Notes under the pieces: model-generated
Seen by the model: the letters and a program-made list of their open reading frames with translations, nothing else
The model's database searches: none
Told to the model about the DNA's origin: nothing
Shown here: one piece after another, positions 18,649-23,274 of the stretch
How positions within the stretch are numbered: the first letter of the stretch is position 1
How the letters are laid out: the number at the start of each line of letters is the position of its first letter
Origin: a virus
Virus record (IMG/VR): IMGVR_UViG_3300032053_000095
Span: 1 to 55,899 of that record
DNA: 55,899 nt
Reading direction: 5' to 3' (one strand)
Translations under genes and position numbers: made by a program

Positions 18649-18797
18649 TTATTTTCTCCAATTGACATAAAAATTAATACATTAAAAATAAGAGAAAAAC
18701 CAAACTTTAAAACTTCCGTAATTTCAGTTGATTTAAACATCATCACTAAACAAAAAATACAAGATAAGAATAAAAGAGTTCCATTAAAAATTTTCAT
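18645..18797 (-). CDS. Small two-helix membrane protein (50 aa)
   Basis: Starts at ATG 18797 overlapping the upstream stop (ATGA), behind AGAGG, and its own stop overlaps the RecT-like start in the same way. It has two hydrophobic stretches (LLFLSCIFCLVMMF and FGFSLIFNVLIFMSIG) and probably spans the membrane twice. Function unknown. Confidence 0.6.
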   Translation of the reverse strand: MKIFNGTLLFLSCIFCLVMMFKSTEITEVLKFGFSLIFNVLIFMSIGENK

Positions 18798-19492
18798 TTT
18801 AAAATCCTCTGCAAATTAGATTTCTGCTTAATCACTATTTTATTTTCAGTTAAAATCTTTATAAGTTCCAATATCTTTTCTTTTGAAGGTTCAGGCAAAT
18901 GACAACCCTTACTATCTGCTCCTATGTTTACGAAATCTGGATGAGCATCTACAATCCATACGGATAATACATCTATATTAAATTCCATTATCGGCTCAAT
19001 AGTAACAAAAGTTTTTACCCCTATACTTTTAAATTTCCTTATTCCTAAATATCTTTCACCAGGAGCGGGAGCAGAAGAAATTTCCGGGTAATAAATATCA
19101 GATTCTATCGTGGTTCCCATAATGAAATCTTTGGGAAAATAACTGCCTATCTCCCATAAATTAAAAGCCTTATTAGGATTCTTAGTTTGAAACACATAAG
19201 TATTATTCGGATATTCCTTACAATGAGATAAAATTTTCTGTATCCAAGAATATTTAATACTTTCAGCAAATAAATCATTCATATGTTCTATAAATATAGA
19301 TTTTCCGCTTCCATAATTTACGTTTAATTCATCTTCTTTTAATCTTGGCTCTCCCTTATATCTCGGACTAACTCCGAACCTATTTTTCTGAACGTAACAG
19401 TATTTACATTTATGTGAACATTCTCCTGCTAAATGGCTGTGAGTAGATGTTACCCAATCATACATATTCCCTGCTGATTTGTTTAACGGCAT
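18794..19492 (-). CDS. DUF5131 / phage Gp37-Gp68 family, radical-SAM-like protein
   Basis: 232 residues. HLAGECSHKCKYCYVQKNRF contains C-x3-C-x2-C, the 4Fe-4S and SAM cysteine motif. Later KSIFIEHMNDLF, YVFQTKNPNKAF and IEPIMEF are characteristic of the phage Gp37/Gp68 family (DUF5131). The opening MPLNKSAGNMYDWV is also typical. Its substrate is not established. It is embedded in the recombination and DNA-modification region. Confidence 0.85.
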   Translation of the reverse strand: MPLNKSAGNMYDWVTSTHSHLAGECSHKCKYCYVQKNRFGVSPRYKGEPRLKEDELNVNYGSGKSIFIEHMNDLFAESIKYSWIQKILSHCKEYPNNTYVFQTKNPNKAFNLWEIGSYFPKDFIMGTTIESDIYYPEISSAPAPGERYLGIRKFKSIGVKTFVTIEPIMEFNIDVLSVWIVDAHPDFVNIGADSKGCHLPEPSKEKILELIKILTENKIVIKQKSNLQRILK

Positions 19493-19797
19493 TTTATTTC
19501 CTCCTTTCTATAATATCCTTTCTTAGTATGAATTCTGGGATTCTGGAATATTTTTTCAAGATTTTTTAAATCTATATTCCTTCTATATAATTGAGTTTTA
19601 CCTTTGATTGGATGATTTATAGCAGTTGAAATTGTCATCGTAGTAGTATAAATATTTATTCTTTGATTTTCCTTTTTAAAAGATAACATATATAAGTTAG
19701 GTGTATATAATTTATTCCAACCATTATCTAATCCTATTTTAATAATTTCATTAATTACTTTAATTTGATTATCTGATAATTTTTCAAGCATTTTCAT
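19483..19797 (-). CDS. Conserved phage protein, unknown
   Basis: 104 residues. The motif INIYTTTMTISTAINHPIKG, followed by TQLYRRNIDLKNLEKIFQNP and RIHTKKGYY, is a pattern I associate with a widespread small phage protein of unknown function. It overlaps both neighbours and lies between the PD-(D/E)XK nuclease and the DUF5131 gene. Confidence 0.7.
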   Translation of the reverse strand: MKMLEKLSDNQIKVINEIIKIGLDNGWNKLYTPNLYMLSFKKENQRINIYTTTMTISTAINHPIKGKTQLYRRNIDLKNLEKIFQNPRIHTKKGYYRKEEIKCR

Positions 19798-20617
19798 TCA
19801 CCTTAAATAAACTTTCTGAACATATTTTGTTCCAATCACAATACTTGCATACTCTTTCACTCTTTGACCTTAGTTGAGTTCCTTCTTCAATTCTTTGCTT
19901 GACATCAAACGCAAACGTAAGCCACTCTTTTACCTTCGCTTGATTATAAACAATAGAAAACGGAGTAACAACTACCGCATGGCAAACATTAAACTTGAAC
20001 CCTAAAATATTATAACCTTCATTTTTCATACAATAAGGATATATAATCGCTTGTGCTTCTTTTTCAGCTTCTTCCTGTGTCCAATCAGAGCTTGAAGTTT
20101 TGTGATCTATTATCCACATAGAACGATCAATAACATCGACCTTCCCTGTTATCCCTAATTTCCTTTCTCCATAAGTAATATGAACACAGAAAAACTTTTC
20201 TATAAATTCTTGCCCCAAAGGATAAATCATAGGAAGTGCTTTTTGAAAATATATTCTTATATAATTCTCACACTTCAAATGCGCCTTATTTTCAGCTAAT
20301 CTTGAAAAATCCGTATTCTGCTTTTCCCTTCCCCATATAGCGTTAAACATTTTTTCTATATCATTCCATCCGTAATGAATACCTCTCTTTACGAAAAATC
20401 TTAAATCCTGTTCTATAACTTCATGGAAGCAACTCCCAATCATGAGATAAACTGATTTAGTAGTTATTTTTGGTTGCGTATATTTCCATACTAATTTCCA
20501 TTCGCATTCCTTCGCCATCATTATGTCTGTCGCGCTCATTTGTAAAATATTATCACTATAAACATGAACCCGTTTATTGAAATCCCAAAATTTAAACCTT
20601 CCTTGTTGATTTTCCAT
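19784..20617 (-). CDS. PD-(D/E)XK nuclease with iron-sulfur-type cysteines (Cas4/RecB-like)
   Basis: 277 residues. The catalytic core is visible: an N-terminal SATDIMMAKECEWKLVW, the motif GKVDVIDRSMWIIDHKTSS (Asp...Asp-x-Lys), and a conserved Tyr helix (AQAIIYPYCMKN). The C-terminal VCKYCDWNKIC together with the N-terminal Cys gives the four-Cys arrangement of Cas4/AddB-type 4Fe-4S nucleases. Likely the 5'-3' exonuclease partner of the RecT-like protein encoded downstream. Confidence 0.85.
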   Translation of the reverse strand: MENQQGRFKFWDFNKRVHVYSDNILQMSATDIMMAKECEWKLVWKYTQPKITTKSVYLMIGSCFHEVIEQDLRFFVKRGIHYGWNDIEKMFNAIWGREKQNTDFSRLAENKAHLKCENYIRIYFQKALPMIYPLGQEFIEKFFCVHITYGERKLGITGKVDVIDRSMWIIDHKTSSSDWTQEEAEKEAQAIIYPYCMKNEGYNILGFKFNVCHAVVVTPFSIVYNQAKVKEWLTFAFDVKQRIEEGTQLRSKSERVCKYCDWNKICSESLFKVNENA

Positions 20618-20637: not shown

Positions 20638-20823
20638 CTAGATTATTTTATTTTTTTCTTCCCTATCTATTTCAATAGAATATCCACAATTCAAACAAGT
20701 TTTAATATTTATATACATATCTTCTGATTCACAATGATCAATTCTCCATTCATTTTTCTTACATTTATGACAATATTCTTTTATATTTTTCTTAAATTTT
20801 AATTTTTCACAAATCTTCGACAT
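20638..20823 (-). CDS. Zinc-ribbon small protein
   Basis: 61 residues with YCHKCKKNEW, then ID-HCE and TCLNCGYSIEI: two C-x2-C knuckles about 22 residues apart, a standard zinc ribbon. It overlaps the end of the cytosine methyltransferase gene by 17 bases. Possibly an accessory DNA-binding factor; function not known. Confidence 0.7.
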   Translation of the reverse strand: MSKICEKLKFKKNIKEYCHKCKKNEWRIDHCESEDMYINIKTCLNCGYSIEIDREEKNKII

Positions 20824-21973
20824 TTATATCCTCCTCAACTATAATTCCTTCTTTCTCCCTTATCTTTTTAATTATATTTTCATAAACATTATTCGCGATA
20901 GCTCTCATAAACAAAGGAGGAACAGCCCTTCCGCATCTTTCCCATTGTTGATTGAAATCTCCTGTTAAAATAAAATCATCAGGGAAAGAACAAACCCTTT
21001 TTATTTCCTTAATAGTTAATCTCCTATTTTCATCTGGGTAAATGCAAGCACATCCTCCAGTATGCCCATGGCTTTGTAAAACAGTATTACATTCTTTATC
21101 CCATTCCAATCTAGTAAGAGAAAAATATGAACCCTTCGGATGATATTTACTACCTGATTCACCAGGTTTTAATTGAATAACATATTTATAAGTTTCATAT
21201 CCTTCCGTTAAACCTTTCTTAGATTCTTCAATATCTTTTTCTGAATTTTCAACTCCTTCTAATGCTTCTCTCACTGTTACTCTTTTAGTAATCCAAGGCA
21301 AAGGAAATGACGGAGCTATTTCTAAATCTTGCCTTACTCCTATAATAATTAGTCTTGATCTCCTTTGAGGAACTCCGAAATCCCTAGCATTTAAAATATG
21401 ATATTGAACCCTATATCCACATTGTTCAAAATGATATAAAAATGTTTTCTCATGTTCTCCGAATAAATCATTCTGTTTAGTTCCTAATAAGTTTAATGCT
21501 CCCCCTAAAGTTAAACCTTCTACATTTTCAGCCACGAATACTTTCGGTTGTATCTCATTTAAAATCCTTATGAACTCAAAAAATAAATCATCAGTTCTCT
21601 GTTCCGTATCAGAATATTTTTTAACCTTTCCCCATCCTTTTTCTCTTTTACCAGAAATAGAAAAACTCGCGCAAGGTGGCGAACCGTCAAGCAAATCAAG
21701 TTCTCCTTTCTTTAATCCTACTTTATCTAAAATAATTTGACCGGTTAATTCTCTAATATCTTCAGGAAATATAATAGTATTAGGATAATTCACTTTATAA
21801 GTTTCAATAGCAGCAGGAATAAATTCATTTATAGCTAATATATTTGCTCCTGCTAATCTATAACCAGTAGAACTCCCTCCGCATCCTGCGAAAGTAGATA
21901 CTACCGTAAATAATTTCCTTTTCTCACTTTCATAAACATCTTTCATTTTAGGTAAGGTTTCAAAATATTTCAT
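20807..21973 (-). CDS. C5-cytosine DNA methyltransferase family, with Arg in motif X
   Basis: 388 residues. Motif I TFAGCGGSSTGYR (27-39), motif IV GSPPCASFS with catalytic Cys101, motif VI ENVEG (149-153), motif VIII QRRSRLIIIG (203-212) and motif X near 347. Motif X reads CGRAVPP: Arg349 (codon AGG, 20927-20929) replaces the nearly invariant Asn of GN(A/S)VPP. In M.MpeI, change of the corresponding Asn374 to Lys or Arg is reported to permit use of carboxy-SAM. With a CmoA-like gene two genes upstream, this enzyme may transfer a carboxymethyl rather than a methyl group. The fold assignment is firm; the altered chemistry is inference. Confidence 0.93.
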   Translation of the reverse strand: MKYFETLPKMKDVYESEKRKLFTVVSTFAGCGGSSTGYRLAGANILAINEFIPAAIETYKVNYPNTIIFPEDIRELTGQIILDKVGLKKGELDLLDGSPPCASFSISGKREKGWGKVKKYSDTEQRTDDLFFEFIRILNEIQPKVFVAENVEGLTLGGALNLLGTKQNDLFGEHEKTFLYHFEQCGYRVQYHILNARDFGVPQRRSRLIIIGVRQDLEIAPSFPLPWITKRVTVREALEGVENSEKDIEESKKGLTEGYETYKYVIQLKPGESGSKYHPKGSYFSLTRLEWDKECNTVLQSHGHTGGCACIYPDENRRLTIKEIKRVCSFPDDFILTGDFNQQWERCGRAVPPLFMRAIANNVYENIIKKIREKEGIIVEEDINVEDL

Positions 21974-21974
21974 T

Positions 21975-22415
21975 TTAATTTTCCTTTAAAAATTCCGTAA
22001 CTTTTCTTTTTATTTCAACATCTTTTCCGTTTATACTTATATTTATTCCTGAAGGATGAGGGATGCTTAATTTTTCAATCTTCCATGGTAAATATCTCAA
22101 ATATTTTCCTATTAGATTTTGAGAAAATTTCCCAACCATAATAACTTTTTCATACTTACCTTGAATTATTCTTTTTATTACATAATCTCTTAATCCAAAA
22201 ATGGTTTCTTTTTTAACAGGAACTATATCACCTTTTCCATTTCTTCCCATATAATAAGGAATGGCATGAATAGTATCAACTAATTCCGCAAGTTCTTCTT
22301 GGCTGTTTACTCTGAACCATTTCCAAAGTCTTTTAGATGAATTCCCTCCATTCCAAGGAATCCTTGTTACTGAACTTTTCGCTGGTGCTTGCCCTATCAC
22401 TAAAATACTATTCAT
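21975..22415 (-). CDS. Uracil-DNA glycosylase superfamily protein
   Basis: 146 residues, short for the family. The N-terminal ILVIGQAPAKSS matches motif 1 of UDG-fold proteins (usually G-Q-x-P), and IPHPSGIN matches the HPS motif that grips the base. It overlaps the PP-loop gene by 8 bases and ends one base before the methyltransferase start. In this cassette it may recognise or process a modified base rather than remove uracil; that is inference. Confidence 0.75.
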   Translation of the reverse strand: MNSILVIGQAPAKSSVTRIPWNGGNSSKRLWKWFRVNSQEELAELVDTIHAIPYYMGRNGKGDIVPVKKETIFGLRDYVIKRIIQGKYEKVIMVGKFSQNLIGKYLRYLPWKIEKLSIPHPSGINISINGKDVEIKRKVTEFLKEN

Positions 22416-23274
22416 TTGGTTCTTCCCCTCCTCCTATTAATAATTGAACTGGTTTATTAACTTTCCAATATATATCCCTATATAAATCAATTACTCTCTG
22501 CCTTCCTTTTTTATTTATTTCAGGATTTTTTAATAAAGGTTCAAATATTTCCCTTATTCCTGAATCCCCACCTTGTAAATTCATCCTTTTAAAAAGATTA
22601 ATCTTAGAAAAATATTCAGGAAACATATCAAGTAGTGCTTGTTTTTGAATAGGTTTATTTATTTCTTCCCAAGTTTTATTAAAAAACCATTTTATTACCT
22701 CTTTACCAACAAATGGATCATAAGTTTTATTATCAGAATTATTAGAAAGTTTCTTAAATATTCCATTATGTATTCTCAAACTATCATAACTCAATATCGT
22801 TTCCTCTTTTCTATATTCTTGTAAATCTTTTAAATTCTTTGCATGATGAATTAATCCATGCTTAGTCAAACAAAAATGGTCATCGGAAGCAAGCCCGATT
22901 AACAAAAGATTTTCTTTCACTTTTGGATAAAGGAAATAATAAGGATAAAAACATTCAACCCTTGTCTTTCTCCAAGTCTTAAATTCCTTTATGAAACTAC
23001 GAACGATATTTATATCCACTATTTTAGGAATGATACATTCAATAAATTCAATTTTAAAAATATCACAATTCCTTTTAGCATTAATATAATCCTGGCTTTC
23101 AATACCTTCCACATGGAAATTATAAGCCCTAACCTTTTTCTTTAATTCCAATAAAGCAAATAATATAGAATTACTATCCTTGCCAGATGATAATGCTATC
23201 GCAATATTATCATATCCTTTAGTAATATTAGATACTTCTTTTAAAAATATTTCTCTTAGTTTTATTTGATGCAT
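22408..23274 (-). CDS. PP-loop ATP pyrophosphatase (asparagine-synthase-like)
   Basis: 288 residues. Residues 25-41 (AIALSSGKDSNSILFAL) form a PP-loop, the S-x-G-x-D-S signature of N-type ATP pyrophosphatases such as asparagine synthase, QueC and TilS. LLLIGLASDDHF is like the second nucleotide-site region of asparagine synthases. These enzymes activate a carboxyl or carbonyl group with ATP so that an amine can be attached. It overlaps the CmoA-like gene by 13 bases and the UDG-like gene by 8. I infer a role in the same modification pathway; the substrate is unknown. Confidence 0.8.
   Translation of the reverse strand: MHQIKLREIFLKEVSNITKGYDNIAIALSSGKDSNSILFALLELKKKVRAYNFHVEGIESQDYINAKRNCDIFKIEFIECIIPKIVDINIVRSFIKEFKTWRKTRVECFYPYYFLYPKVKENLLLIGLASDDHFCLTKHGLIHHAKNLKDLQEYRKEETILSYDSLRIHNGIFKKLSNNSDNKTYDPFVGKEVIKWFFNKTWEEINKPIQKQALLDMFPEYFSKINLFKRMNLQGGDSGIREIFEPLLKNPEINKKGRQRVIDLYRDIYWKVNKPVQLLIGGGEEPNE

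Follow-up and report, generated by a model that had tools for sequence, protein, structure and literature searches.

A predicted DNA cytosine carboxymethyltransferase with arginine in motif X, and its UDG-superfamily neighbor, in an uncultivated phage

The window analyzed here, which is the whole 55,899-base stretch of the uncultivated virus record IMGVR_UViG_3300032053_000095 (GC content, 33%), carries a gene, cmoX, whose product is predicted to attach carboxymethyl rather than methyl groups to cytosines of DNA. This reading is supported by conserved residues and by the nearest structural match of the protein. Two genes present in the same window, cmoA and cmoY, had gone unremarked in the preliminary description of this DNA, and we consider it very likely (probability, roughly 0.9), by homology to assayed enzymes, that the window encodes a CmoA-CmoX-CmoY pathway for hypermodified cytosine. 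The window contributes a further natural operon predicted to make carboxymethylcytosine, this one from an uncultivated phage. Because natural carboxymethyltransferases were published in December 2025, the chemistry being already known from phage S-B43, the finding is less novel than the preliminary description had implied. It does provide an independent test of the link between residue and cofactor, with arginine occurring together with CmoA and asparagine without it, and what is new beyond the published system is an undescribed UDG-like accessory gene inside the operon. The features discussed are listed in Table 1.

Table 1. Features of the cmoX region, in window coordinates
Feature	Coordinates	Strand	Basis
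DUF5131 protein, possibly radical SAM, just downstream of the operon	18794-19492		
PD-(D/E)XK/Cas4-like nuclease, downstream of the Cys-rich ORF	19784-20617		
Cys-rich (zinc-ribbon-like) ORF, 61 aa, overlapping the cmoX 3' end by 17 bp	20638..20823	(-)	Sequence only
cmoX, predicted DNA cytosine C5-carboxymethyltransferase, 388 aa	20807..21973	(-)	PF00145, E 7e-58; PDB 8YF3, E 7e-83; conserved Cx-SAM contacts
AGG codon for Arg349, carboxylate-binding position (M.HhaI Asn304, SpCmoX Arg350)	20927..20929	(-)	Codon mapping, alignment
Protein of the UDG superfamily (phrog_12275 type), 146 aa, with the motifs GQAP and PHPSG	21975..22415	(-)	PF03167, E 3e-7; AF2; Foldseek; recurrence in cmoX operons
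cmoY-like gene for a 288-aa ATP-dependent amide ligase with the asparagine-synthetase fold	22408..23274	(-)	phrog_26038, E 3e-37; SpCmoY, 30%; AF2; Foldseek
cmoA, at the head of the cluster, putative carboxy-SAM (Cx-SAM) synthase of 212 aa	23262..23900	(-)	TIGR00740; PDB CmoA/YecO; SpCmoA

The motif X arginine and Cx-SAM binding

The cmoX open reading frame is complete, with no internal stops, and residues 22 to 363 of its product match PF00145. Motif X reads GRAVPP (residues 348 to 353; Arg349 lies within QQWERCGRAVPPL), confirming the report in the preliminary description that an AGG-encoded arginine stands in place of asparagine. AGG is an ordinary arginine codon for the window phage, being used for 10 of the 22 arginines of cmoX, with AGA used for the other 12. 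Arg349 is not a sequencing error, because the nearest relative (L038 in our numbering of loci, 59% identical) likewise has GRAVPP and more than 100 other homologues have arginine at this position. The same description had called the motif X asparagine invariant, which does not hold: in one large clade from phages arginine is the normal residue, and methionine (2 phage loci and 19 genome loci), leucine (1 locus) and glycine (2 loci) are also seen.

Motif X touches the cofactor, and the R350N change in the published enzyme SpCmoX shows that activity can be abolished at this site, so that Arg349 might be a loss-of-function change in a decaying or inactive methyltransferase. We find this hardly credible, given that the gene is full length, that the catalytic motifs are all intact (SPPC, residues 98 to 101; ENV, 149 to 151; QRR, 203 to 205), as had been pointed out in arguing against simple decay, and that the arginine is conserved in more than 100 diverse phage homologues.

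When the PDB was searched with CmoX, the best match was 8YF3, whose chain is named “Cytosine-specific methyltransferase.” This is SpCmoX of Synechococcus phage S-B43, a natural cytosine C5-carboxymethyltransferase described in Nat Commun in December 2025 (PMC12783734). In its crystal structure, Arg350 takes the place of Asn304 of M.HhaI and binds the carboxylate of Cx-SAM; the wild-type enzyme uses Cx-SAM as its sole cofactor and does not use SAM, the R350N protein is active with neither, modification by SpCmoX in vivo requires E. coli cmoA, and the authors remark on the resemblance to the engineered enzyme M.MpeI N374K (PMC12783734). In our alignment, CmoX Arg349 falls on SpCmoX Arg350 and M.HaeIII has asparagine at the equivalent position; no other asparagine of CmoX takes the site. 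All six of the named Cx-SAM or catalytic contacts are kept (SpCmoX/window, F25/F28, E47/E50, F48/F51, D69/D72, C98/C101 and R350/R349). Together with the presence of cmoA in the operon, these results support the carboxymethyltransferase reading that had first been put forward from the motif.

The window enzyme resembles M.MpeI N374K in having a basic residue for the motif X asparagine, a substitution that permits Cx-SAM use, but M.MpeI N374K is engineered and has a CpG target, whereas window CmoX is natural, has arginine and is accompanied by a putative Cx-SAM synthase gene of its own. The GC target of SpCmoX cannot be transferred to window CmoX because the DNA recognition regions are divergent, and depletion of GpC, looked for in the window sequence as a sign of target specificity, was not found (observed/expected, 1.06).

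Arginine and CmoA among related methyltransferases

Loci were gathered via the window protein, a CmoX alignment, non-Arg phage methyltransferases included for contrast and the UDG family; they form a non-random sample. In the main set of 176 non-redundant C5-methyltransferases, with CmoA scored in the fetched flanks, CmoA was nearby in 101 of the 106 loci with arginine, in both of those with glycine and in none of those with asparagine (0/65), methionine (0/2) or leucine (0/1). The link between arginine and CmoA-like neighbors, which the preliminary description had set beforehand as a check on its claim, was thus borne out, and it extends to the operon of the window itself. A separate collection of bacterial genome contigs gave CmoA nearby in 36 of 39 cases with arginine and in 0 of 19 with methionine; two of the three exceptions with arginine are truncated by contig ends. 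Among the five arginine loci of the main set without a nearby CmoA, Erwinia phage Yoloswag (L035) has CmoA elsewhere in its genome.

These counts bear on the idea that CmoX is an ordinary SAM-dependent 5-methylcytosine methyltransferase in which arginine is tolerated, with the nearby cmoA serving phage tRNA modification. The fold and the remaining motifs do match those of ordinary C5-methyltransferases, but wild-type SpCmoX is unable to use SAM (PMC12783734), all 65 asparagine relatives are without CmoA while nearly all arginine homologues have it, and the genes for CmoA, the CmoY-like protein and CmoX overlap or abut in one operon. S-B43, moreover, has no CmoB homologue, a point that comes from that phage and not from the window. 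We therefore regard the tRNA explanation as highly improbable and retain the assignment of CmoX as a predicted carboxymethyltransferase.

The arginine has essentially one origin, and its co-occurrence with CmoA is largely one evolutionary event. The tree gives only four independent contrasts, of which CmoA lies in the expected direction in 3.6 on average (sign test, median p of 0.125), and for this reason the Fisher p of 5e-40 is not counted as evidence of independence. Most informative are nested changes among the arginine relatives, some of them weakly supported, that lead to asparagine (L142, L154 and L242) and to leucine (L036, a complete 141-kb genome); no CmoA match was found anywhere in these four records, some of which are fragments.

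Several other arrangements were seen among these loci. In Staphylococcus phages vB-SscS-F1 (L120, 6819-7826) and PhiSepi-HH3 (L121, 6660-7667), CmoA adjoins a C5-methyltransferase with glycine at motif X, and the former phage also has CmoY; the two glycine enzymes may be carboxymethyltransferases that recognize the carboxylate in another way. The methionine clade (GMSVPP; L118, L119, L286-L302, L305 and L309) comes mostly from Bacteroidetes genomes and their phages, and CmoA is never nearby. In Verrucomicrobia, several cmoX-cmoA pairs can be present in one MAG (L252, L254, L258, L260, L276 and L285; L273, L279, L281, L282 and L284), a pattern that suggests numerous prophages or a mobile use by the cell. 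Nonomuraea and Streptomyces genomes (L247, L250, L251, L261, L263 and L270) have cmoX and cmoA, often with a larger CmoY of ~470 aa. Tandem duplicates also occur, with two adjacent CmoX genes in L085, L094 and L117 and two CmoY genes in L055.

The operon and the predicted pathway

The order of genes on the minus strand is cmoA, cmoY-like, UDG-like, cmoX, Cys-rich ORF, nuclease, a 104-aa ORF, DUF5131 and RecT. The intergenic distances are -13 bp (cmoA/cmoY), -8 bp (cmoY/UDG), +1 bp (UDG/cmoX) and -17 bp (cmoX/Cys-rich ORF), and the two overlaps and the 1-bp gap among the first four genes suggest that cmoA-cmoY-UDG-cmoX is one tight transcription unit, in which cmoA lies 1.3 kb upstream of cmoX. 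CmoA matches TIGR00740 with an E value of 9e-40 and a score of 136.8 bits, under the curated equivalog cut-off of 193.3, and finds YecO/CmoA in the PDB (1im8, E 4e-27; 4gek, E 2e-25). It is 40% identical to the assayed SpCmoA and has the C-terminal signature DYKR..SFT..EI.DKE..LR..LKPNT in common with it; on these sequence grounds, the two belong to one divergent subfamily. The CmoY-like protein has an SSGKDS loop, and its AF2 model (pLDDT, 91.5; the prediction was made with IMG/VR loci only) has asparagine and beta-lactam synthetases as its Foldseek matches (E 3e-10). PADLOC gave no match for the UDG, CmoY or CmoA proteins; its only matches were to generic methyltransferase, to Cas4/DruK-type nuclease and to the candidates PDC-M41B/M30B.

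The closest known system is that of S-B43 (PMC12783734; PDB 8YF3), in which the genes for CmoA, CmoY and CmoX are likewise adjacent and in that order, CmoX likewise has arginine at motif X and all the Cx-SAM contacts, and CmoY is likewise a single-domain protein without a glutaminase domain. Identity to the window proteins is 40 to 48% for CmoA and CmoX and 30% for CmoY. Unlike S-B43, the window has a UDG-superfamily gene between cmoY and cmoX and the Cys-rich ORF over the cmoX 3' end.

Gene content and order, homology, residue conservation and co-occurrence are observed here; the reactions and the benefit to the phage are drawn from the assayed homologues. By analogy with these, CmoA would convert SAM and prephenate to carboxy-SAM. 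CmoX would then flip a cytosine out of the DNA, with Cys101 attacking C6, and move the carboxymethyl group from Cx-SAM to C5 to give 5-carboxymethylcytosine; a salt bridge between Arg349 and the extra carboxylate would cause Cx-SAM to be chosen over SAM. CmoY would activate the carboxymethyl carboxylate with ATP and couple an amine, which is glycine in the one relative that has been assayed. The identity of the amine in the window is a matter of speculation, glycine and another amine being about equally probable, and it may differ from that of SpCmoY because the two proteins are only ~30% identical. The likely benefit to the phage would be resistance to host restriction. More speculatively, the modified or deaminated base may be a substrate of the UDG-superfamily protein or be recognized by it.

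The UDG-like gene

The match of the UDG-like protein to PF03167 is above the gathering score, and its AF2 model (pLDDT, 88.4) has as its top Foldseek matches 3ikb, SMUG1, family-4 UDG and UdgX, with TDG also found. The window copy has His50 where nearly all relatives have asparagine, a position that aligns with the base-binding asparagine of family-4 UDG (“TNVVK”). A close search with the window protein alone yielded no confirmed relatives, either in IMG/VR or from named phages; the relatives were found by a profile search with four UDG copies, all of them CmoX-adjacent.

Among 50 CmoX records, phrog_12275 had three matches, and all three lie inside the cmoX operon. The gene order is CmoA-UDG-CmoX in L038 and CmoX-UDG-CmoA in L076, and in L039 (8717-9970; also in L130 and L131) a 417-aa ORF between cmoX and cmoA has the UDG-like domain fused to the C terminus of CmoY. 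A UDG-anchored scan of 41 IMG/VR loci found 13 (~10 distinct lineages) that adjoin cmoX and cmoA, 2 that adjoin an Asn-type methyltransferase without CmoA (L142 and L154) and 9 (~8 distinct; L124, L132, L135, L139, L140, L141, L144, L145 and L147) that lie <4 kb from a TAGT (TET-associated glycosyltransferase) gene, several of them overlapping it, with PF20691 confirmed in all nine. The association with CmoX carries some seeding bias, whereas that with TAGT is unseeded.

One explanation is that CmoX acts as proposed and the UDG-like gene is a chance neighbor concerned with ordinary uracil repair. It draws on the presence of the gene in only 4 of ~110 CmoX-anchored loci, on the wide distribution of UDG-superfamily genes (seen in controls), on the histidine that the window copy has in place of a near-invariant asparagine and on the use of CmoX-adjacent copies as seeds for the scan. 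The placement of every phrog_12275 match within a cmoX operon, the two sets of UDG-anchored loci next to cmoX and cmoA or near TAGT, and the fusion of UDG to CmoY in one lineage speak against it, and we hold chance adjacency to be a real though doubtful possibility. Our own proposal, made tentatively, is that the UDG-like protein is a dedicated component of phage base-hypermodification operons, common to the CmoA/CmoX and TAGT systems, in which it might either excise, as a glycosylase, 5cxmC that is deaminated or incompletely modified or, as a base-flipping reader, hand the base to CmoY.

In its main text, the paper describing SpCmoX makes no mention of a glycosylase (PMC12783734). Brig1 and Brig3 (PMC13160076) share with the window protein a UDG fold and a context of modified phage cytosine, but they are host defense enzymes, whereas the window protein is phage encoded within a modification operon; its nearest matches by fold search are 3ikb, SMUG1 and family-4 UDG. 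A dedicated role would make a glycosylase-like protein a recurrent accessory of phage DNA hypermodification. Should it prove to repair or to read modified bases, the protein would help to explain the upkeep of unusual phage genomes and could offer tools to detect or remove such bases.

The CmoA/CmoX (carboxymethylcytosine) and TAGT (putative DNA-base glycosyltransferase) systems are chemically unrelated. The notion that both UDG-linked systems modify cytosine was dropped, because no C5-methyltransferase was found in the TAGT records and the TAGT-linked base therefore need not be cytosine. A Pfam search for TET dioxygenase in the UDG-bearing records returned 0 matches, as did its Pfam control, so that the result is no evidence of absence. 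One of the TAGT-linked loci (L144) encodes a fusion of the TAGT domain with a family A DNA polymerase domain.
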